A stretch of 62,607 bases of DNA from the NCBI GenBank assembly GCA_949283785.1, contig CASDTR010000065.1:1-62607 (forward strand). Reading direction: 5' to 3'. The position numbers and the translations under genes were made by a program. This document shows positions 2,123 through 12,442 of this stretch, piece by piece. Numbering within the stretch: the stretch's first letter is position 1; each line of letters opens with the position of its first letter. The notes under the pieces are model-generated. The model saw only the letters and a program-made list of their open reading frames with translations, searched no databases and was not told where the DNA came from. The DNA is from an uncultured Oscillospiraceae bacterium (GTDB lineage: Bacteria > Bacillota > Clostridia > Oscillospirales > Acutalibacteraceae).

Positions 2123-3475
2123 TTACCTCACAAGTATTCCGTTGTCCCCGTAAAGCAGAAAGTATATATTTTCCTCTTCGCCCGTAGCTGCGTTTATATA
2201 TACCAGAAGTTCCTCGCTGCCAATGCCCTCGCACCAAAATTCATAGCAGAGGACCTCCTTCCCCGAATCCGTCGGAATCACCGCCGTCTTAACATCCTTG
2301 ACAGTCAAATAGGGGCTTAAAGACTTCTCGGCATTTTCGGCTGTCAAAGCAGGGTTTACGTCAGTTCTGGCAAAATGATTCACAAGATAGCCTCTCGCGT
2401 CAACGGAAATCACTTTGCCTGTATCCATGGCGACGCTTATTTTTATAAGGTCCGAATAACAGATGACCCCGTTTTGCACATAGGCGTAATTTACGGTACA
2501 AATTCCGTCGTTTATTGAGTAATAGCTCTCTTTCATATTGTTTATGCCGTGGCTTTCAAGGTAGTCGAGTCCTCTTTCAACGGCCTCCTCTTCCGAGAGC
2601 TTCGCCACTCCCGCATAGCTGCTGCCCAGCATATAGGAAAGATAGCCTCCCCTTTTAGTTATGCTTATAACTACTCCGTCCTCTTCGCTGGAAAAGGTAT
2701 ATGACGCCAGAGAACCGTTTTCATCCTCGCCCCTTTTCAGCTTTTCGATTGCTATTCCAGAAAAGTCAGCGGCAGCCTCAGTGGCCGCAGCTTCCGATAT
2801 CTCCTCCTTGCCCTTTATCATTTCGGGCTCCTTTTGAAGAATATGGTCGGAAAAGGGGCCGTCATATATAAGGGTCGGATAATCCACCAGAGCCTGCTCA
2901 GCATCACTTATGGCCGTTTCAAAATTCAGGCTGTCCGCTTCATCGCTCATTGTCTCTACGGCTTCTTCGGTGCTCTCAAATGTAAGAGAACCGTTTTCAA
3001 GATAAGCGCACATGGTTTCAAGGCGTGAAGTAAGCTCTTTTGAGTATTTTATAAGCTCCGTAAGGCTTTCATACTCCTCCTCGCTGATTTTTTCTCCCCT
3101 CGCTGCCTTTTCGCTCAGGCTGCTGCAAAAGGCTCCCACCTGGGAAAGAAATTTAAAGGTGTTTTCAAGAAGTATATCGGAAACAGGAAGCACGCTCAGG
3201 CAGCTCTTCGCCTGAGTCGCCTCTCTCCAAATTTCCGAAGAGAGCTTTTCGGCCATCGGCGCTGTGGCGGTGTAATATTCCTTACTCAGGCCCTGCTGTA
3301 TATTCGATATGCAGGTGGTAAGCTCCGTAAGGGCTCTCTGCCGTGAGTTTGTGTTTATCCGCTCAAGCTGCTGTGCCCTCGCATAATTTGAAATTGCTGC
3401 AGCGCTCAGTGCCACCACTGCTGCGCATATAAAGCTTATTATCCTTACAAGATTCCTTTTAGACTTTATTACCAT
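2123..3475 (-). CDS. ypeB: Germination protein YpeB
   Basis: In Bacillus, YpeB stabilises the spore cortex-lytic enzyme SleB in the spore. This protein has 450 residues, the family length. A short cytoplasmic start is followed by one membrane anchor (residues 12-33), a long helical region (about 35-200) and C-terminal PepSY-type repeats (about 230-450) ending in YINAATGEEENIYFLLYGD. The usual partner gene sleB is not adjacent: the neighbours are the small gene at 1770 (convergent) and a cysteine desulfurase (divergent). A GTATA..CAGAATA pair near 3529-3556 on the minus strand weakly resembles a forespore sigma-G promoter, but the spacing is short. It implies a spore-forming ancestor or host. 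Confidence 0.88.
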   Translation of the reverse strand: MVIKSKRNLVRIISFICAAVVALSAAAISNYARAQQLERINTNSRQRALTELTTCISNIQQGLSKEYYTATAPMAEKLSSEIWREATQAKSCLSVLPVSDILLENTFKFLSQVGAFCSSLSEKAARGEKISEEEYESLTELIKYSKELTSRLETMCAYLENGSLTFESTEEAVETMSDEADSLNFETAISDAEQALVDYPTLIYDGPFSDHILQKEPEMIKGKEEISEAAATEAAADFSGIAIEKLKRGEDENGSLASYTFSSEEDGVVISITKRGGYLSYMLGSSYAGVAKLSEEEAVERGLDYLESHGINNMKESYYSINDGICTVNYAYVQNGVICYSDLIKISVAMDTGKVISVDARGYLVNHFARTDVNPALTAENAEKSLSPYLTVKDVKTAVIPTDSGKEVLCYEFWCEGIGSEELLVYINAATGEEENIYFLLYGDNGILVR

Positions 3476-3723: not shown

Positions 3724-4860
3724 TTGGAAGCTTATCTTGATAACAGCGCAACAACGCCGGTTTGCCGAGAGGCAGCCGATAAAATATCTCAGGCAGTAAC
3801 GGTGCTTTACGGGAATCCCTCTTCCCTTCACGAAAAAGGTTTCGAGGCAGAAAAGCTTTTGAAGGAATCGAGAAGCAATGTAGCAAAGGTCATTGGCTGC
3901 GAGGCGGACAGGCTCTTTTTTACGGCAGGGGGAACGGAAGCAAACAATCTTGCCCTTTTCGGTATTGCAAGAACAATGAAGCGAAAGGGAAACAAAATAG
4001 TCACGACGGCCTTCGAGCATCCGAGCGTGGCAAAATGCATTGACTTTCTGGAAGCGGAAGGATTTGAAGTTATCCGTATCGCCCCTGACAGCTCAGGCAA
4101 CATTCCTGCCGAGTCCTTTAAAAAAACAATCGATGAAAATACCGTACTTGTCGCCGTAATGGCAGTCAATAACGAAACGGGAAGCATTCAGCCCATCAAA
4201 GAAATCAGAGAAATTATAGAGGAAAATCATTCGCCTGCCTTCTTCCACTGTGACTGTGTTCAGGCCTTCGGAAAGGTCAATATGCGCACGCTCACACCCT
4301 ATGCCGACACCCTGAGCGTCAGCGCCCATAAAATACACGGTCCGAAAGGCGTAGGCGGACTTTACATAAAAAAGGGAGTGCGTCTCTCCCCTCTCATTTT
4401 CGGAGGCGGACAGGAGCACGATATACGTCCGGGCACGGAACCTATGCCTGCAATAGCAGGTTTCGGAGCGGCGGCCGCCGCCCTTCCGAATCCCGACAAA
4501 ACTCTCGAAAGAATATCGGAGCTTAAGGAAAGGCTCCTTTCAAGGCTTTCGCAGTTTGACGACGTTGTTATCAATTCCCCCGATAACGCCCTTCCTTATG
4601 TGATAAATCTTTCGGTTCTGGGAATACGCTCGGAGCCCATGATAAACTTTCTCTCGGATATGGAAATCTATGTTTCCGCAGGCTCTGCCTGTTCAAAGGG
4701 ACACCGCAGCGAGGCCCTTACGGCTTTAGGCATAAGCCCCGAAAGAATAGACAGCGCCCTGAGAGTGAGCCTTTCGAGATTCACAACGCAAGAGCAAATA
4801 GACATGCTGGCCGAAGGCATAGACAAATGCAGAAAATTTTTACGCAGGAGCAGAAGATGA
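3724..4860 (+). CDS. Cysteine desulfurase (NifS/NifZ-like)
   Basis: A PLP enzyme that takes sulfur from cysteine as an enzyme-bound persulfide. The 378-residue protein shows the N-terminal YLDNSATTP motif, the PLP lysine in SAHK at K203, and the active-site cysteine C323 in SAGSACSKGH. The start is a TTG, 7 nt after GGAGG (3712-3716). The gene overlaps thiI by 4 bp (ATGA). In Bacillus subtilis a dedicated desulfurase, NifZ, sits next to a rhodanese-less ThiI and feeds it sulfur for 4-thiouridine in tRNA. The same arrangement here suggests that role rather than general Fe-S cluster assembly. Confidence 0.93.
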   Translation: MEAYLDNSATTPVCREAADKISQAVTVLYGNPSSLHEKGFEAEKLLKESRSNVAKVIGCEADRLFFTAGGTEANNLALFGIARTMKRKGNKIVTTAFEHPSVAKCIDFLEAEGFEVIRIAPDSSGNIPAESFKKTIDENTVLVAVMAVNNETGSIQPIKEIREIIEENHSPAFFHCDCVQAFGKVNMRTLTPYADTLSVSAHKIHGPKGVGGLYIKKGVRLSPLIFGGGQEHDIRPGTEPMPAIAGFGAAAAALPNPDKTLERISELKERLLSRLSQFDDVVINSPDNALPYVINLSVLGIRSEPMINFLSDMEIYVSAGSACSKGHRSEALTALGISPERIDSALRVSLSRFTTQEQIDMLAEGIDKCRKFLRRSRR

Positions 4861-6029
4861 AAGAAGTAATACTTATAAAAAACGGTGAGCTTGCCCTGAA
4901 AGGTCTCAACCGTTCCACATTTGAGGATATCCTCGTTAAAAACATCCGCAGAAGGCTGAAAAACGCGGGAGATTTTGACTATATAAAGTCCCAGTCCACA
5001 ATAATCATCGAGCCTAAAGACGAAAGCTGCGACTTTGAAGCCGCTCTCGAAGCGGTAAGCAGGATTTTCGGCATCGCAGGCTTTTCCCGCGCTGCAGCCG
5101 TGGAAAAGGATTTTGAGAAGGTAATCGAAATAAGTGGAAACTATCTCCAATCCGCCCTTAAAAACGCCAAAACCTTTAAGGTGGAAGCCAAAAGGTCCGA
5201 TAAAAAATTCCCGCTTACCTCTCCCGAAATCAGCCGGGAAATGGGCGGACATCTCCTTTCCATTTATCCCCACCTTAAAGTAGATGTACACAATCCCGAA
5301 GTCACCGTAATGGTGGAGGTCAGGGACAAATACATTTTCCTCCACGGCACCCAGATAAAGGGCGCGGGCGGCATGCCGGTAGGCACGGGCGGAAAAGCGG
5401 GAATACTTATTTCCGGCGGAATCGACAGCCCCGTCGCCGCATGGATGATGGCAAAGAGAGGCATTGAGCTTACTGCAATTCATTTCGCCTCCCCTCCCTA
5501 CACCAGCAGGAGAGCCGAGATGAAGGTGGTAACGCTTCTCGAAAAGGTAGCAAAATACAGCGGCAGAATGACTATGTTCACCGTGCCTTTCACCGAAATT
5601 CAGGAGCAGATCAAAGACAATTGTCCCGAAGAGCTCTTCACGCTCATTATGCGCAGAGCCATGATGAAGGCGGCGGAAAATATCGCGAGGAAGGAAAACT
5701 GTCAGGCACTTATCACGGGCGAAAGCGTGGGACAGGTTGCAAGTCAGACCATCTACGCCCTTGCCTGCACAGACGCTGCGGCAAATATGCCAGTATTCAG
5801 GCCCCTCATAGGAATGGACAAGGATGAGATAATCGAAATCTCCCGTAAAATCGACACCTTTGAAACCTCCATTCTCCCCTACGAGGACTGCTGTACGGTA
5901 TTTACGCCGAAGCATCCGAAAACGCGTCCAAATCTTGAAGACATAAAGAAAGCGGAGCGGCTTATCCCCATTGACGAGCTGGTGGAAAAAGCCGTAAACG
6001 ATTCTCAGATAAGAACCGTAACCGCCTGA
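4857..6029 (+). CDS. thiI: tRNA 4-thiouridine synthase ThiI (no rhodanese domain)
   Basis: Adenylates uridine 8 of tRNA and inserts sulfur. The 390-residue form starts at the ATG overlapping the upstream stop, preceded by AGGAG (4846-4850). A longer reading from 4827 lacks a ribosome binding site. Residues 1-60 form the ferredoxin-like NFLD start (ILIKNGELALKGLNR), about 60-165 a THUMP domain, and the rest the PP-loop ATPase with the SGGIDSP motif near residue 185. The protein ends at about 390 residues, without the C-terminal rhodanese domain of the enterobacterial enzyme, as in other Firmicutes that use a partner desulfurase. Confidence 0.95.
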   Translation: MKEVILIKNGELALKGLNRSTFEDILVKNIRRRLKNAGDFDYIKSQSTIIIEPKDESCDFEAALEAVSRIFGIAGFSRAAAVEKDFEKVIEISGNYLQSALKNAKTFKVEAKRSDKKFPLTSPEISREMGGHLLSIYPHLKVDVHNPEVTVMVEVRDKYIFLHGTQIKGAGGMPVGTGGKAGILISGGIDSPVAAWMMAKRGIELTAIHFASPPYTSRRAEMKVVTLLEKVAKYSGRMTMFTVPFTEIQEQIKDNCPEELFTLIMRRAMMKAAENIARKENCQALITGESVGQVASQTIYALACTDAAANMPVFRPLIGMDKDEIIEISRKIDTFETSILPYEDCCTVFTPKHPKTRPNLEDIKKAERLIPIDELVEKAVNDSQIRTVTA

Positions 6030-6060: not shown

Positions 6061-7335
6061 ATGAAATGTGAAATACTGTCCGTGGGAACCGAGCTGCTGT
6101 TGGGGGATATCCTCAACACCGACGCACAGTTTCTCGCAAGAGAGCTGGCGGCAATGGGCTTTACCATGCAGCATCAGGGCACCGTGGGAGACAATCCCGA
6201 AAGGCTCCGCGAAGCCGTTGAGCACGCCCTTTCGAGGAGCGACATCATAATCACCTCGGGAGGCCTCGGCCCCACCGCCGACGACATAACCAAGGAAATG
6301 TGCGCCGAGGTCATGGGGATTCCCCTTGTGCTCCACGAGGAAAGCCTTCAGCGTATGCTTGACTATTTCAGCCACAGAAAGGGCGGCATGCCCGAGACCA
6401 ACCGCAAGCAGGCGTATCTCCCCGAAGGCGGAGTGGTTTTCAGGAACGATTACGGCACCGCTCCCGGCTGCGCAATGGAAAAGGACGGCAAATGCATAAT
6501 CTGCCTTCCCGGGCCTCCCCGCGAGCTCTACCCCATGTTCAACAATTTTGTAAAGCCCTATCTTTCCGCAAAATCGGGAATGGTCATAATCTCCCACAGC
6601 GTGCGCACCTTCGGAATAGGCGAGTCGCTGATGGCGGAAACCGCAGGCGAACTGCTCAACATGAGCAATCCTACCGTTGCTCCCTATGCCAAGGACGGAG
6701 AGGCACTTCTGAGAGTTACCGCAAGGGCTGAGACAGAGGAGAAGGCCGAAGAGCTCATAAAGCCCGTTATAACCGAAATAGAAAACCGACTCGGAAAGTT
6801 TATATACGGCATAGACGTTTCAAGCATTCAGGAGAAGGTCGTCAAGCTTTTAAAAGAAAAGAAAATGAAAATCGGCCTTGCGGAATCCTGCACCGCAGGC
6901 TACATTGCAAAGAGGATAACGGAAATCCCCGGTTCATCCGAGGTTTTTGACTGCGGCATAGTATCCTACGCCAACCGCATAAAGGAGCAAATTCTCGGAG
7001 TCCCCCATGAGGCGATAGAGAAAAAAGGAGTCGTCAGCCGTGAGGTTGCATGTCATATGGCGAAAGGCGCTTTAAGGGTCAGCGGCGCAGATATTGCGGT
7101 TTCCGTCACGGGAATCGCGGGCCCCGACCCCAGCGAAGGCGGAAAGCCCGCAGGGCTCAGCTACATAGCCCTTGCCGACAAAGACCATGTCTGGTGCATA
7201 AAATTTGAAACAGGCCGCTCAGGCGACAACAGAGAGTATAACCGCTACGTCACCGCTTCAAACGCTCTTAATCTTGCAAGGCTTTATCTTATCGGAAAAC
7301 TTGCCGCTGAAGACGCGGAGCGAGATTTTGATTAA
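6061..7335 (+). CDS. cinA: CinA: molybdopterin-like domain plus nicotinamide-nucleotide amidase domain
   Basis: The two-domain competence/damage-inducible protein A, linked in other bacteria to pyridine-nucleotide recycling (NMN deamidation, ADP-ribose hydrolysis). Residues 1-170 are the MoCF-type domain with GTELLLG (9-15), SGGLGPTADD (66-75) and LPGPP (149-153). Residues 257-415 are the C-terminal amidase with AESCTAG (274-280) and VSVTGIAGP (347-355). All motifs are intact, so the enzyme should be active. It starts 31 bp after thiI with AAGGAG, and a sortase gene follows after 15 bp. Two catalytically degenerate relatives lie three and four positions further on in the operon, which makes this copy the natural reference for them. 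Confidence 0.96.
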   Translation: MKCEILSVGTELLLGDILNTDAQFLARELAAMGFTMQHQGTVGDNPERLREAVEHALSRSDIIITSGGLGPTADDITKEMCAEVMGIPLVLHEESLQRMLDYFSHRKGGMPETNRKQAYLPEGGVVFRNDYGTAPGCAMEKDGKCIICLPGPPRELYPMFNNFVKPYLSAKSGMVIISHSVRTFGIGESLMAETAGELLNMSNPTVAPYAKDGEALLRVTARAETEEKAEELIKPVITEIENRLGKFIYGIDVSSIQEKVVKLLKEKKMKIGLAESCTAGYIAKRITEIPGSSEVFDCGIVSYANRIKEQILGVPHEAIEKKGVVSREVACHMAKGALRVSGADIAVSVTGIAGPDPSEGGKPAGLSYIALADKDHVWCIKFETGRSGDNREYNRYVTASNALNLARLYLIGKLAAEDAERDFD

Positions 7336-7350
7336 GGAGGCAGAATTTAT

Positions 7351-8478
7351 ATGAACAAGGATTTTAAAGACAAAAACAGCCAGCCCGAAAGGGAAGAAAA
7401 CTACAACGAACTGTTTGAAAAAGATACCGAAAGCTATACAGAGCCCGGCAGTCATAAGCCTGCTGAATCCGATACATCCTCTTCGCCCGAGAAGAAGGAA
7501 TCCGCTTTCATCAGATTCCTCAAGTATCTGTTCCCCTGGAAGGGCGACAGCGTCAAGGAGATAATCAGAAAAATCGTATTTCTTGTTGCCCTTATCGTAC
7601 TCGTTGTATGCGCGGTCATTCTCGGCAACAGATTTATCGAACGCAGTAACAGCGACAAAACTTTCGACGAGCTGAACAACTGGAAAACCGAAATGGAAAA
7701 TGTGGACGATAATGAAGAAAACTGGGCTGAGATAAAAGCTTTATATCCGGATGTAGATTTCCCCGAGGGAATGAACATAAAATGGGCAAAAGCCTACGCT
7801 GCAAACCAGGATTTCGTAGGGTGGCTTAACATTCCGGGAACAAACATCTCTTATCCCATCGTTCAGGGTGAGGATAACGACGAATATCTTTATCTTGACT
7901 TTAACCGCACCGATACTAATTACGGAAATCCCTTTATGGATTACCGCAACAGTATAACCGAACTCGATAAAAACACAATTATCTACGGTCACCACATGCG
8001 CGACAACATGATTTTTGCTCCGCTCAAGGAATATACAGATCCCGAAACTTTTAAACAGTCACCCATAATTGAGCTGAGCACCCTTTATGACGATTACACC
8101 TTCAAAATTTACGGCGTATTCATTACAAATGCTCATCCGGAACAGAACAACGGATATGTATTTAATTTCATGCACACTTCCTTCGGTTCCGATGAAAACT
8201 TTATGGAATATATTGAGCAGGTGGATTTGCGAAAGCTTTACACCACCGGCGTAGATATTCAGCCCGATGACAAAATTATCACTCTGAATACTTGCTACTT
8301 CAACTTTACTGAGGCAAGGCTTGTCCTCATAGGCAGAATGGTGCGCGAGGGAGAGGATGCCTCTGTCGATACCTCAAAGGTACAGGTAAACTCCAATCCC
8401 CTCTGGCCCCAGGCCTACTATGATAAAAAAGGCATTAAAAACCCATATTCCGATTATGAAAACTGGTATCTCAACTAA
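7351..8478 (+). CDS. Class B sortase with long cytoplasmic N-terminus
   Basis: A membrane transpeptidase family that anchors surface proteins or assembles pili. The 375-residue protein has a charged cytoplasmic tail (1-70), one membrane helix (about 72-95) and an extracellular sortase domain with GWLNIPGTNISYPIVQ, the catalytic His in IYGHH (about 213), the catalytic Cys in TLNTC (C315) and Arg in ARLVLIGR. The fold order and the TLNTC variant of TLxTC place it with class B. It lies between cinA and a CinA-like membrane protein. No protein in this window has a convincing sorting signal, so its substrates are unknown. Confidence 0.9.
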   Translation: MNKDFKDKNSQPEREENYNELFEKDTESYTEPGSHKPAESDTSSSPEKKESAFIRFLKYLFPWKGDSVKEIIRKIVFLVALIVLVVCAVILGNRFIERSNSDKTFDELNNWKTEMENVDDNEENWAEIKALYPDVDFPEGMNIKWAKAYAANQDFVGWLNIPGTNISYPIVQGEDNDEYLYLDFNRTDTNYGNPFMDYRNSITELDKNTIIYGHHMRDNMIFAPLKEYTDPETFKQSPIIELSTLYDDYTFKIYGVFITNAHPEQNNGYVFNFMHTSFGSDENFMEYIEQVDLRKLYTTGVDIQPDDKIITLNTCYFNFTEARLVLIGRMVREGEDASVDTSKVQVNSNPLWPQAYYDKKGIKNPYSDYENWYLN

Positions 8479-8512: not shown

Positions 8513-10156
8513 ATGAAAACAAATCTTCTCTGTTTGAGAAAAAATGAACTCAGAGGATTGCACGCGGAAATTGCCGTATGCGACGCGGCTGCCCCGTACG
8601 GGCTCGAAGAGGAAAACTGCAAAAGCTTCTCTAACGAGGAAAGCTTTTTCAGGTGCCTTTCCGAAATTTCCGAGGAAGGAACACTGACGATTCTCGCCGT
8701 TGATACAGAGGTTTTCCTCAGCACAAAATCTGCTCTTTTTTCTGCTTTATCTCTTAATTGCGAATACAGCAAAACAATTTCGGAACGTATAAACCCCGAC
8801 ACGGCTGAAAGGAAAAAGCACTGCGAAGTGCCCGCAGGGGCCACCGTACTTCCGTCCGACGACGGTCTCTTTTCAGGCTTTGCCTTTAAAAAAGGAAAAT
8901 ACAATATTGTTTTTCTTCCCCTCGGCGATAAAATTACGCAGCAGTGCCTTGGAGATTCATTCTACAATTATCTTGAGCCGACAGATGAGGTGAAATCGGT
9001 TGCGGAAAATAACGATAATGATATGTCTGACGTGCTGAACGTTATTTCCGAAAGTGCTCTCGATGCATGCCGTATTCTTCGAGACATGGGATTTCAAGCC
9101 GCTTTATCCGTTTCCCTTTCCGCTGAAAAAATCTGCAATCTTCTGCCTAAGATGGATGAAATTAAATTTCTTCACCCCCCCATTGAAAGAAATAATTTTT
9201 CTCCGAAAAATTATGCGGCTCAGCTCGCAAGAGAAGCTGCAGCACGCTCCGGTGTGAAGATAGGAGCAAGTATCACCAATGCTTTCAAGGTCCAGGCAGA
9301 CGGCGAGACAAAGGTGTTCCTTTGTGTTGCCGTAGCCGACAGCGAAGCGGCCAAAGTCAAAAAGATATACGCTCAGCCTAATGAGGCGCCAATTGCTCTT
9401 ACTGTCTGCGCAATTGAAACAGTTCTCGATATGATCAAAGGACAGGCTGTAAGAGGGAAAACCGTAATATCAGAGGACGATGAAGATAAGATAAGTGTGC
9501 TCGCCCCTTCGATCACGAAGAACACTCGCAAAAAAATAACTGCAGGTACTATCTGCGCTGGCGCCACAGCTCTCGTGCTGTGTCTTTCCATAGCTGTCGG
9601 AGCAATCATCATTAATCATAACGATGTCCCCGTCTCCACTAAGCCCGGTACAACCCAGGAAAATATCGGCGCAGATGACGAAATACCTGAGGAATATAAA
9701 AATTTCTGGGACTATTTGTTTTCCTCAGACAAAGATGAAGAATCTGACGATGTAGATTCGGATGAAGATACGCCTTACATTGACGGAGAATCGGATAATA
9801 ACGGAACTTCTCACGGCAATTCTTCGGACGATGAAACTTCGGCTTCCAATGAAACACAGCCGAGCACCAATCCTTCAGAGCCCGGAACGGGAACAACTGA
9901 AAGGCCGACAGAACAGCCTACGGGAGAAAGTCCTACCGAAAGCAGGCCCACTGAACCCGGCACGGAAAAGCCCACCGAAGCTCCTACAGAGCCTACTACC
10001 GAAGCTCCTACAGAGCCTACTACCGAAGCTCCCACCGAGCCTCCCACTCAATCTCCTACAGAACCCACCACTGAGCCTTCAACTGAACCTCCCGCTCCTT
10101 CTTCAGAACCGAGCGCTGAAAACGAGAATATACCCGTCCCTCAGGATTTACAGTAA
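8513..10156 (+). CDS. Membrane protein: degenerate CinA-like cytoplasmic domain, TM helix, Thr/Pro/Glu-rich tail
   Basis: 547 residues, function unknown. I align residues 45-155 with the second half of the CinA MoCF domain: the PAGATVLPSDDGLFSGFAFK stretch (107-126) matches the CinA stretch at residues 121-140, and VFLPL (133-137) matches CLPGP. Residues 180-305 align with the CinA amidase domain: RDMGFQAALSVSLSAEKICN (190-209) sits on the ESCTAG region, and GASITNAFKV (251-260) on SVTGIAGP. The GGLGPTADD and ESCTAG catalytic motifs are both lost. One TM helix follows (342-367), then an acidic and Thr/Pro/Glu-repeat outer region to the end. It has no sorting signal or C-terminal anchor. The start has a GGAAAGG site 8 nt upstream. 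The CinA kinship is my inference. Confidence 0.85.
   Translation: MKTNLLCLRKNELRGLHAEIAVCDAAAPYGLEEENCKSFSNEESFFRCLSEISEEGTLTILAVDTEVFLSTKSALFSALSLNCEYSKTISERINPDTAERKKHCEVPAGATVLPSDDGLFSGFAFKKGKYNIVFLPLGDKITQQCLGDSFYNYLEPTDEVKSVAENNDNDMSDVLNVISESALDACRILRDMGFQAALSVSLSAEKICNLLPKMDEIKFLHPPIERNNFSPKNYAAQLAREAAARSGVKIGASITNAFKVQADGETKVFLCVAVADSEAAKVKKIYAQPNEAPIALTVCAIETVLDMIKGQAVRGKTVISEDDEDKISVLAPSITKNTRKKITAGTICAGATALVLCLSIAVGAIIINHNDVPVSTKPGTTQENIGADDEIPEEYKNFWDYLFSSDKDEESDDVDSDEDTPYIDGESDNNGTSHGNSSDDETSASNETQPSTNPSEPGTGTTERPTEQPTGESPTESRPTEPGTEKPTEAPTEPTTEAPTEPTTEAPTEPPTQSPTEPTTEPSTEPPAPSSEPSAENENIPVPQDLQ
9977..10048 (+). repeat. Three 24-bp tandem repeats encoding EAPTEPTT
   Basis: Two exact and one diverged copy of a 24-bp unit (9977-10000, 10001-10024, 10025-10048) encode the wall-type PTEAPTEPTTE tail. 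The number of units is probably variable between strains. Confidence 0.85.
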
Positions 10157-10230
10157 GGGACATGTGATTTACCTCTTTGATTTAACCAAAAAAGTTACCG
10201 TTAATAAAAGAGCATATGGAGAATAATCCT

Positions 10231-12387
10231 ATGAAATCCTATTTTCTCTGTCTTAGAAAAAAAGATAGCGAAACCTCAAAGGCGGAAGCCGTCATTTTGC
10301 GTTCGGCAGCCTGTATCAGCATAAAAAGAGAAAACTGTCAAAGCTATAATAACGCAAGGGAATTTTTCCTCCGCCTGTCTGAGATTTCATCAGAAGCATC
10401 CGCCGTAATCATGGCCGTCGACAGGGAATTCTTTGTCAACGCCAAGCGCATGGTATGTTCGCTTTTTTCGCTTAAGTGTGCTGAATGCGAAGAGTTGGCG
10501 CGTATTTGCAATAAGGATGAAGATCTTGAAACTCACTGCACCATGCCGGAAAACAGCGCTGTTTTTATGACCGAAGACGGGTTGTTTTCGGGATTTGCAG
10601 TCAAAAAAGATAATCTGCATCTTATATTCCTGCCTCTCGATAACGACAGAATACCTAAATGCGAAAAGGCTGTTAAAAGATACATTTCGGAAAATTTTCC
10701 CTGTGAGAACTCAGATGACTCCTCAAATGACAGCGGAGAATACGGCAGCTCCACAGAGCGGGCTTTTTTTGAGTTGGATGACCTTCTCAGCGAATCACGG
10801 CTTAAAGCCTTTGTCTCCGTTTCGCCCGGCGGGAAAAAGGTCCTTAATAAATTCCCTAAAAAGGAAACAATCAGCTTTTTTACTTCTGAGCTCAAACGAG
10901 ACGGTAATTCACCAAAAACTTACGCCGCCCTTTTAGCGAAGGAAGCCTCTGAACGTTCAGGGTCAAATATAGGAGCAAGCATTACTCACGCTTTTAAAGT
11001 AGAGGGCGACAATCAAGATAAGTGCTTCGTTGTTGTCGCCGTAGCCAACAGCGAAAACGCAAGGGTCAAAAAAGTCTGCGCAGAGGAAGACGAAAGCGTA
11101 GGAGCACTCATATTCCGTGCGGCGGGTATTGCCTTTGAAATGCTGGCAAAAACTCTTCGAAACGGTCTCACAGCAGAAACTGCTTCAGCATCTTCTTCCG
11201 AAACTAAAAAACCTCATGTAAAGCACCGGAAGTTTTTAATAGCGGGAATCTGCGCTGCCGTAATAGCCTTCCTTTCTATCGCTTTAAGTGTTGGATACTT
11301 CATGGCACGGGCAAACAGCAGCTCAGTGCCTTCAAATTCGGAAATCGTTAAAAACTATGACGATACCGATGATCGTCACGGAGAAGTGGCTCTCATACCG
11401 GACACATTCGTATATGAGGATGTCTTGGATACCCAAGGTGATGAAAGCGCGTCCGAAACTAGTGAAACCCAATCGGGAACCGAGAACGAGACTTCCTCCG
11501 AAGAGGAAATCTCCGCGACTGAAGGCACCTCATCGACACATCCCGCGACAGAAAAGCCTGAGCCAACTACCATAAAAGAAACCGCCACCTCCCCCCCTGT
11601 TTCCGACGGCACCTTCTTATTCACTGTCTACGGATACGGTCATGGAGTCGGCATGAGCCAATACGGCGCTGACTACTTTGCGAAACAGGGCTGGAGTTAC
11701 GACAAAATTCTCACATATTATTATACGGGAACAACTGTACTTGATGACCCCAACATGCCCGAAACCTTAAAGGTAAACGGCAAAGACGTGGAAACGAGTC
11801 TCGCCGTTGCAATGGTCGTACAGGGTGAAACGGGACCGAGCTTCCATACGGAGGCACTCAAAGCACAGGCAGCTGCAGCGTATACATACGCCATGAGAAA
11901 CGCAGGCTCCTGTGACGGGCTGTACGCCGTCTCAAATCCGTCACAGACGGTCATAAACGCCGTCAACGCCGTTAAAGGGAAATACGTCTCATATAACGGC
12001 ACCTACATAAACGCCGTTTTCTTCGCCTATTCAGGAGGCAGCACAGTATCCTCTTCTTCGGTATGGGGCTCAACGGTAAATTATCCCTATCTTGTCCCCG
12101 TTGACAGCTCATCGGACCTTAAGCTCAGCAACTGCAAAACTCAGGTGCGCATTTCCGCCTCCGAAATGAAAAAAAGAGCCTATGATTCCTACGGCGTCGC
12201 ACTTACGGGAGACCCTTCCTCATGGCTTAAAATACTGAGCCACGACAACTCCACGGGAACAGGCGTCGGGTATGTTTCTCAAATTTCCATGGGCGGCAAG
12301 GTCTTAAGCGGAAACCAGTTCCGCACCTATGTAATGGACTACGACATACGCTCCCATTGCTTCTCCGTTGAATTTATACCGAATTAA
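10231..12387 (+). CDS. Membrane protein: degenerate CinA-like domain, TM helix, circularly permuted SpoIID/LytB domain
   Basis: 718 residues from the ATG at 10231 (GGAG at 10218-10221). The upstream ATG at 10216 contains that site, and the paralogue also starts MK..xLCLRK. Residues 1-310 repeat the degenerate CinA architecture of the preceding gene (ENCQSYNN, EDGLFSGFAVK, LIFLPL, GASITHAFKV). A TM helix (333-356) and a Ser/Thr/Glu linker (370-455) follow. Residues 462-718 are a SpoIID/LytB domain, the family that trims peptidoglycan glycan strands at sporulation septa or enhances wall amidases. GHGVGMSQYGA (470-480) comes before QGETGPSFHTEALKAQAAAA (531-550), the reverse of the usual order. 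The catalytic-type Glu (E533) is kept. A terminator follows. Confidence 0.88.
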   Translation: MKSYFLCLRKKDSETSKAEAVILRSAACISIKRENCQSYNNAREFFLRLSEISSEASAVIMAVDREFFVNAKRMVCSLFSLKCAECEELARICNKDEDLETHCTMPENSAVFMTEDGLFSGFAVKKDNLHLIFLPLDNDRIPKCEKAVKRYISENFPCENSDDSSNDSGEYGSSTERAFFELDDLLSESRLKAFVSVSPGGKKVLNKFPKKETISFFTSELKRDGNSPKTYAALLAKEASERSGSNIGASITHAFKVEGDNQDKCFVVVAVANSENARVKKVCAEEDESVGALIFRAAGIAFEMLAKTLRNGLTAETASASSSETKKPHVKHRKFLIAGICAAVIAFLSIALSVGYFMARANSSSVPSNSEIVKNYDDTDDRHGEVALIPDTFVYEDVLDTQGDESASETSETQSGTENETSSEEEISATEGTSSTHPATEKPEPTTIKETATSPPVSDGTFLFTVYGYGHGVGMSQYGADYFAKQGWSYDKILTYYYTGTTVLDDPNMPETLKVNGKDVETSLAVAMVVQGETGPSFHTEALKAQAAAAYTYAMRNAGSCDGLYAVSNPSQTVINAVNAVKGKYVSYNGTYINAVFFAYSGGSTVSSSSVWGSTVNYPYLVPVDSSSDLKLSNCKTQVRISASEMKKRAYDSYGVALTGDPSSWLKILSHDNSTGTGVGYVSQISMGGKVLSGNQFRTYVMDYDIRSHCFSVEFIPN

Positions 12388-12417
12388 AATACAAAACAAA
12401 ATCAGACATTATTAACA

Positions 12418-12442
12418 GGGAGATATTTCGTCTCCCTATTTT
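12418..12442 (+). terminator. Intrinsic terminator of the cinA-sortase operon
   Basis: GGGAGA (12418-12423) and TCTCCC (12431-12436) with a TATTTTTATT tail, 30 bp after the last gene of the operon. Confidence 0.85.

Follow-up and report, generated by a model that had tools for sequence, protein, structure and literature searches.

Two neighboring genes, P0001 and P0002, in a 62,607-nucleotide stretch of DNA from an uncultured Oscillospiraceae bacterium (GenBank assembly GCA_949283785.1, contig CASDTR010000065.1, positions 1 to 62,607; this whole stretch is referred to here as the window) encode proteins in which a cytoplasmic half homologous to CinA is followed by a transmembrane (TM) helix and an extracellular part. 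The interpretation toward which we lean is that P0001 and P0002 are membrane-anchored CinA pseudoenzymes in an undescribed module, in which pairing between CinA folds positions or gates a class B sortase (SrtB) and a SpoIID-type wall hydrolase. The module comprises a real CinA (or a short PncC), at least one class B sortase, and, in many genomes, a SpoIID-type hydrolase, encoded in one gene run. CinA is widespread and recycles the nicotinamide mononucleotide (NMN) that DNA ligase leaves behind; what it does besides recycling pyridine nucleotides is unclear. The parts of the two proteins are encoded as follows.

8513-10156, forward strand: P0001, whole gene.
8513..9532, forward strand: P0001 residues 1-340, cytoplasmic pseudo-CinA (COG1058-like and PncC-like, without KH) and linker.
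9557..9613, forward strand: P0001 TM helix, residues 349-367 (hydropathy window, 2.47), with an Arg/Lys-rich stretch immediately N-terminal.
9614..10153, forward strand: P0001 extracellular tail, acidic and then Pro/Thr/Glu-rich, in which a domain search found no domain.
10216-12387, forward strand: P0002, whole gene.
10216..11211, forward strand: P0002 residues 1-332, cytoplasmic pseudo-CinA domain.
11236..11292, forward strand: P0002 TM helix, residues 341-359 (hydropathy window, 2.64).
11293..11589, forward strand: P0002 Ser/Thr/Glu-rich extracellular linker, read from the translation.
11590..12384, forward strand: P0002 residues 459-723, circularly permuted SpoIID (TIGR02669, E = 3.4e-41), with the catalytic-position Glu at residue 538.

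Searches with the single P0001 and P0002 sequences produced sub-threshold matches to CinA models (E = 0.0011 to 0.017), and a first scan of the genome contigs with the N-terminal domain of P0002 found no relative. Within the window's family, relatives of the cytoplasmic part of P0002 were found in 72 of 300 genomes, representing 31 of 135 genera. Neighborhoods were taken from 60 of the 72 genomes (the best-scoring and most of the others), which together with the window gave 63 proteins at 61 loci, and a family profile that ended before the TM helix was built from these 63 proteins. This pseudo-CinA profile matched 30/30 full CinAs (E = 9.6e-24 to 4.9e-10) and 23/23 short PncCs, 19 of them under 1e-4 and four (L045, L050, L090, and L058) at 0.0034 to 0.11. 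The 53 sequences of the reversed control drew no match, and five further open reading frames (ORFs) matched at 4e-4 to 0.016 marked the onset of noise. An iterative profile, which drifted into the TM and SpoIID regions, was set aside, and the evidence comes from the cleaner TM-cut profile. Profile searching of 295 genomes of the order matched 133; because many listed matches fell in frames as long as CinA or PncC, this number is not a count of the pseudo-CinA family. Among the matches listed, the form with pseudo-CinA followed by a TM helix was not found outside the window's family, and the frames examined were CinA-SrtB fusions or plain CinA/PncC.

A reading of the window from sequence alone (the sequence-only reading) had proposed similarity to CinA over both of its domains, a proposal borne out by profile comparison and by the predicted fold. 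Alignment of the pseudo-CinA profile with a CinA profile by hhalign gave 99.6% (E = 5.1e-24), compared to 0.2% for the reversed control, and a second profile-profile alignment gave 99.6% (E = 8.6e-24). When the pseudo-CinA profile was compared to PDB sequences, Streptococcus mutans CinA was matched at 3.7e-7 and Thermus thermophilus CinA at only 0.064, and a designed repeat protein was matched at 4.6e-6 through nine weak stretches. AlphaFold2 modeling of the pseudo-CinA domain (51 sequences) produced a confident two-domain prediction (predicted local distance difference test [pLDDT], 91.1; predicted template modeling score [pTM], 0.64). All 22 of the PDB structures matched by Foldseek at E ≤ 0.001 were CinA, PncC, or COG1058 structures, the best being T. 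thermophilus CinA (6.6e-11); whole-chain template modeling scores were low (0.33 to 0.45), and the single-domain structures at this threshold scored 0.57 to 0.64 by target length. We regard the CinA homology of the cytoplasmic halves of P0001 and P0002 as settled.

Active-site residues named in a report on T. thermophilus CinA (PMC4246079) were transferred by alignment to the window's CinA and scored in the 63 family proteins. At the pyrophosphatase (Mg/ADP-ribose) site, the Asp76 column contained Asp in 0/63 proteins, the Glu156 column contained Arg in 45/63, and the Asp45 column contained Asp in just 10/63; Glu12 fell outside the alignment. At the NMN deamidase site, the Lys301 column was a gap in the family, ESCT(A/G)G had no conservation of its Glu or its Cys, and R391 and R395, one of which was taken for Arg377 (a presumed rather than an aligned correspondence), were not conserved either. 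The sole deamidase residue left was Thr340, whose column was retained as Ser/Thr in 57/63. The KH domain was absent, with that stretch of CinA aligning mostly to gaps in the family. According to the same source, KH residues Lys211 and Glu187 close the pyrophosphatase site of the partner chain in T. thermophilus CinA (PMC4246079); both are lost along with the domain. Loss of catalytic residues for the two CinA activities, which the sequence-only reading had also claimed, was found across the family, and it is very unlikely that P0001 and P0002 have either ancestral activity.

Replacements were analyzed at positions that 29 or all 30 of the 30 CinAs conserve. The first Asp of GPTxDD was Tyr/Phe in 62/63 pseudo-CinAs, the TAP of GTAPG was replaced by L (53/63), Y/F (54/63), and S (50/63), and positions of LPGPPRE carried L (46/63), D (41/63), and R (45/63) instead. 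These conserved replacements fall in the segments that hold the ADP-ribose site of CinA, and therefore the domain has probably been repurposed and is probably not decaying.

The genes were part of a recurring run, nifS-thiI-cinA/pncC-srtB-pseudoCinA(-SpoIID), whose other members in the window were as follows.

3724..4860, forward strand: nifS/iscS-type cysteine desulfurase, the start gene of the recurring run (TIGR03402, E = 5.3e-102, under the equivalog cutoff).
4827..6029, forward strand: thiI, tRNA uracil 4-sulfurtransferase (TIGR00342, 389 bits, over the cutoff).
6061..7335, forward strand: cinA, intact COG1058, KH, and PncC (Pfam MoCF, CinA_KH, and CinA all over the cutoff; PRK00549, 481 bits).
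7351..8478, forward strand: P0004, class B sortase with an N-terminal cytoplasmic tail, a TM helix, and an extracellular sortase domain (TIGR03064, 181.9 bits; cutoff, 153.75).
12417..12437, forward strand: terminator-like hairpin 3' of the last gene of the run, a consensus match only.

The gaps separating cinA, the sortase gene, P0001, and P0002 were 15, 34, and 59 nucleotides, and this cinA was the only PF02464 match in the window's genome. Terminator-consensus matches in the region numbered 16, compared to 12.9 (standard deviation, 3.9) in shuffles. The sortase catalytic residues of P0004 were present in the translation as judged by eye, without a model: Cys (TLNTC), His (YGHH), and Arg (ARLVLIGR). 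A ypeB germination gene (2123-3475, reverse strand) lies divergently before nifS; its cluster occurred at 17 of the compared loci, on the opposite strand every time.

Survey of the 61 loci revealed srtB directly upstream of the pseudo-CinA gene on the same strand at 59 loci by script and, with L036 (slight ORF overlap), at 60; only 92 nucleotides of contig lay upstream in the remaining locus, L082. ORFs for cinA/pncC were found within 9 kb upstream in 53/61 loci, and the upstream side was truncated by contig ends in four (L036, L055, L081, and L082). SpoIID was fused to pseudo-CinA in 28/61 loci and encoded by the next gene in 9/61. nifS-like ORFs occurred at 41 loci (same strand in 40/40 counted) and thiI-like ORFs at 44 (same strand in 41/41 counted). 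A TM window of >1.8 was detected in 58/63 family proteins, 57 of them within residues 200 to 480 and one (L080) farther along. The association with a true cinA (intact and three-domained upstream in the window, with cinA/pncC near most relatives) and the TM helix following the cytoplasmic part of both proteins had been anticipated in the sequence-only reading and were confirmed, and the gene order, whose recurrence that reading had raised as a question, does recur. Its proposal of fusion to both membrane and wall modules held in part: each protein has a TM helix, but the wall enzyme belongs solely to P0002, with no known wall-acting domain in P0001.

Exactly one PF02464 match was found in each of 36/36 chosen genomes, and it was near or fused with srtB in 31; the single match was a short PncC (frames of ~160 to 207 amino acids) in many genomes (G251, G175, G040, G271, and others). 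Among 117 evenly sampled genomes of the order (completeness, ≥85%), comparison of the cinA and srtB listings by eye placed cinA either in fusion with srtB or no more than ~5 kb away in 17. The linked genomes belonged to the window's family (4/8), family f26 (7/7), and family f4 (3/3), with single genomes of f9, f15, and f23; the link was seen in 0/96 genomes of other families, where draft contigs may hide some. Among 80 named records identified with the CinA profile, srtB was adjacent or fused to cinA in 14 (L138, L140-L149, L151, L153, and L202), with pseudo-CinA next in 12 of these, and lay ~4.4 kb away in L155. Within the DNA examined, the link was not detected in the other 65, including Clostridium, Caloramator, Lachnospiraceae, and cyanobacteria. 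Linked records were named as Clostridia, Oscillospiraceae, Ruminococcaceae, or uncultured bacterium, and judging by such names, the order searched is probably Oscillospirales. Plasmid records yielded just weak SpoIID pieces, in two records.

Elsewhere in the order, 15 ORFs contained a TM helix between an N-terminal part and SrtB; because these were drawn from two collections, a few could share an organism. The N-terminal part had intact GGLGPTxDD and ESCT(A/G)G motifs in 10 (one cut by a contig end), was an intact PncC only in 2, was a degenerate CinA in 2 (L126 and L132), and had no profile match in 1 (L229). A degenerate COG1058 domain had been suspected by eye at the N terminus of L229 (G020) and was rejected for lack of a profile match. 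The L126 fusion also lacked the sortase Cys. In L132, a degenerate CinA (CinA profile, E = 6.3e-12), SrtB, and a canonical SpoIID were joined in a single polypeptide. Mapped on a tree with six fused rows, the fusion required five changes, at least three of them by well-supported branches. These fusions are the strongest evidence for CinA, SrtB, and SpoIID activities working together, and the three look like one module. The sequence-only reading had mentioned neither the CinA-SrtB fusions nor the CinA-SrtB-SpoIID chain nor the permutation of SpoIID.

Among 19 of 118 module sortase ORFs that failed the Cys motif pattern, most do have the Cys; apparent pseudo-sortases without a catalytic Cys (e.g., TLATP and TLSTS) were chosen from them by eye (L126:8671-11346, L075:6494-9313, L079:6227-8992, L046:9171-10301, and L045:8333-10333). 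Long low-complexity Pro/Ala/Glu-rich stretches, apparently cytoplasmic, preceded the TM helix in stand-alone sortases at L038:4081-6930, L045:5518-8355, and L046:6717-9083, in which the TM helix started at residues 652, 646, and 483, respectively. The window's own genome contained no match to the srtB sorting signal TIGR03063 at E ≤ 10. TIGR01167 had one match over the cutoff elsewhere, a result that is uninformative because controls matched in 14/14 genomes (9 over the cutoff). A second class B sortase of the genome (G000:C64:24174-25258) had a sub-threshold LPXTG-type signal in a 100-amino-acid frame directly upstream.

The outer domain of P0002 is a SpoIID-type wall hydrolase with predicted glycan-cutting activity. 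Its C-terminal GHGVGMSQYG block leads (473), with the EALKAQA block second (546), and alignment with the solved SpoIID 5i1t produced aligned blocks in swapped order. The AlphaFold2 model of the domain was of high confidence (pLDDT, 96.1; pTM, 0.91), all three Foldseek matches at E ≤ 0.001 were SpoIID, and the catalytic-position Glu was invariant (30/30). By a motif rule, 30 of 37 module SpoIID ORFs were permuted, 3 looked canonical, and 4 lacked the motif; given this mixture, the permutation seems to have arisen within the module SpoIID family. Zinc ligands were dropped as a criterion for SpoIID because a previous report describes the zinc-ligand motif only for Clostridioides difficile SpoIID (PMC6221140). 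A role of P0002 as the sporulation SpoIID was considered and rejected as improbable, since another SpoIID encoded in the genome lies over the spore_II_D equivalog cutoff (contig C1, 299.2 bits). The outer domain of P0002 scored under that cutoff (134.6 versus 234.75). The circularly permuted SpoIID is a separately useful result.

Selection was assessed between the window and one congener, G123. The ratio of nonsynonymous to synonymous substitutions (dN/dS) was ~0.11 for the N-terminal domain of P0001 and ~0.21 for that of P0002, compared to 0.026 for cinA, 0.050 for srtB, and 0.042 for SpoIID; these ratios are rough because dS is near saturation. The dN of the pseudo-CinA N-terminal domains was 9 to 13 times that of cinA. 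The pseudo-CinA domain is constrained, under purifying selection, yet its divergence far outpaces that of its partners. In a 52-row tree, 18 of the 63 family members formed one clade (100/100) on a long branch apart from all sampled CinAs; its root among the CinAs was not placed because long branches meet there and bootstrap support was not settled. The proposal in the sequence-only reading that the neighboring cinA was duplicated inside the operon was not upheld, given this deep clade. The one younger duplication is that of P0001 and P0002, two members being present in just 2/61 loci, the window and its congener.

In the preferred interpretation, the pseudo-CinA domains of P0001 and P0002 would form pairs, either with CinA or among themselves, by way of the surfaces used in the CinA dimer, at the inner membrane face. 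Such pairing may hold or gate the sortase and the putatively glycan-cutting SpoIID at one site, so that CinA, an enzyme that recycles NMN and ADP-ribose, would through its assembly state position the wall enzymes and perhaps also switch them; in relatives, direct CinA-sortase fusion may reach the same arrangement. T. thermophilus CinA is dimeric both in the crystal and when analyzed by size exclusion (PMC4246079).

Several observations weigh against this interpretation. The interaction, localization, and activity of the module proteins are all inferred. No cinA/pncC was found despite upstream sequence in 4/61 loci (L057, L059, L062, and L086), and SpoIID was neither fused nor next in 24/61, so not every part is obligatory. 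Five of the 63 family proteins lacked a TM window of >1.8 (L083, L084, L086, L088, and L089). Compared by eye, CinA was unlinked to srtB in G020, G021, G127, G458, and G520; in G458 and G520 the intact CinA was unlinked while a degenerate CinA was fused to SrtB. Finally, the N-terminal domain of P0002 was 48.9% identical between the two congeneric species, compared to 94.8% for CinA and 90.6% for SpoIID, and such fast divergence fits poorly with a precise CinA interface.

The best-surviving alternative, proposed in the sequence-only reading and regarded here as unlikely, is that the proteins are ligand sensors: a nucleotide or pyridine metabolite would be bound in the rebuilt COG1058 pocket, and a TM signal would gate SpoIID or the sortase. 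The strong conservation of new residues in segments carrying the ADP-ribose-site residues of CinA and of Ser/Thr at the Thr340 position (57/63) would fit such a sensor, as would binding of NMN products and ADP-ribose by true CinA (PMC4246079). However, the family has conserved none of the four acidic residues of the Mg/ADP-ribose site (Asp at the Asp45 column in 10/63), the site-closing KH domain is missing, the domain evolves fast, and no outer output domain is known for members of the P0001 type. In a broader and equally tentative form, pseudo-CinA receptors might read the pyridine-nucleotide state or CinA occupancy and signal across the membrane to the permuted SpoIID and class B sortase, so that the cutting of the wall and the anchoring of surface proteins would be coupled to nicotinamide adenine dinucleotide metabolism and to DNA synthesis.

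There is a smaller chance that the pseudo-CinA domain is a passive remnant of an older CinA-membrane fusion, serving only as a cytoplasmic anchor. Its high divergence, the degenerate CinA-SrtB fusions L126 and L132, and module sortases with a long low-complexity cytoplasmic part could all be explained in this way, but the dN/dS of 0.11 to 0.21, the confident two-domain structure prediction, the presence of pseudo-CinA in 31 of the 135 genera searched, and the conserved replacements at formerly catalytic positions argue otherwise. That cinA, srtB, and spoIID-like genes share an operon without a shared function, together by inherited gene order, is very improbable, since despite order kept by descent in close relatives and a nifS-thiI-cinA run without detected srtB in L232 (contig ending ~3 kb downstream), the CinA-SrtB fusion requires repeated changes on the tree, all three are joined in one protein (L132), and pseudo-CinA is fused to SpoIID. 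A role in anti-phage defense gained no support, P0001 to P0004 having matched no PADLOC families at E ≤ 0.01.

The preferred interpretation, of membrane-anchored CinA pseudoenzymes that position or gate SrtB and SpoIID, builds on known families, and its novelty lies in the system. P0001 and P0002 share the COG1058 and PncC folds and domain order of T. thermophilus CinA (COG1058-KH-PncC; PDB accession numbers 4CT8 and 4UUX) but lack the conserved Mg/ADP-ribose acids, Lys301, ESCT(A/G)G, and KH and are membrane anchored. The outer domain of P0002 shares the fold, GHGVGMSQ motif, and catalytic-position Glu of the SpoIID lytic transglycosylase (PDB accession numbers 5I1T and 4RWR), from which it differs in being circularly permuted and under the spore_II_D equivalog cutoff. 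P0004 scored over the class B sortase family cutoff; what sets it apart is that it is encoded beside CinA (and fused to CinA in relatives), with no TIGR03063 match in the genome at E ≤ 10. In FtsEX and its wall hydrolase, a cytoplasmic nucleotide-related part governs an outer hydrolase in inside-out control. FtsEX would be a functional analogue; a relation to it was neither looked for nor seen, and the module lacks the ATPase and has pseudoenzyme and hydrolase in one chain. A literature search covering few subscription papers and no preprints found no description of CinA with sortase or SpoIID, of a membrane pseudo-CinA, or of this module, in agreement with the sequence-only reading that no such system had been described.

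Gene runs and fusions repeatedly tie the CinA fold to two surface enzymes, and this pattern offers a testable handle on the wider role of CinA and suggests an unrecognized link between the chemistry of the cell interior and the wall. We know of no earlier CinA-fold protein that acts across the membrane on the wall. If the interpretation is true, P0001 and P0002 would be the first such proteins, and a SpoIID-type hydrolase and a sortase of gut bacteria would be under inside-out control of a new kind.

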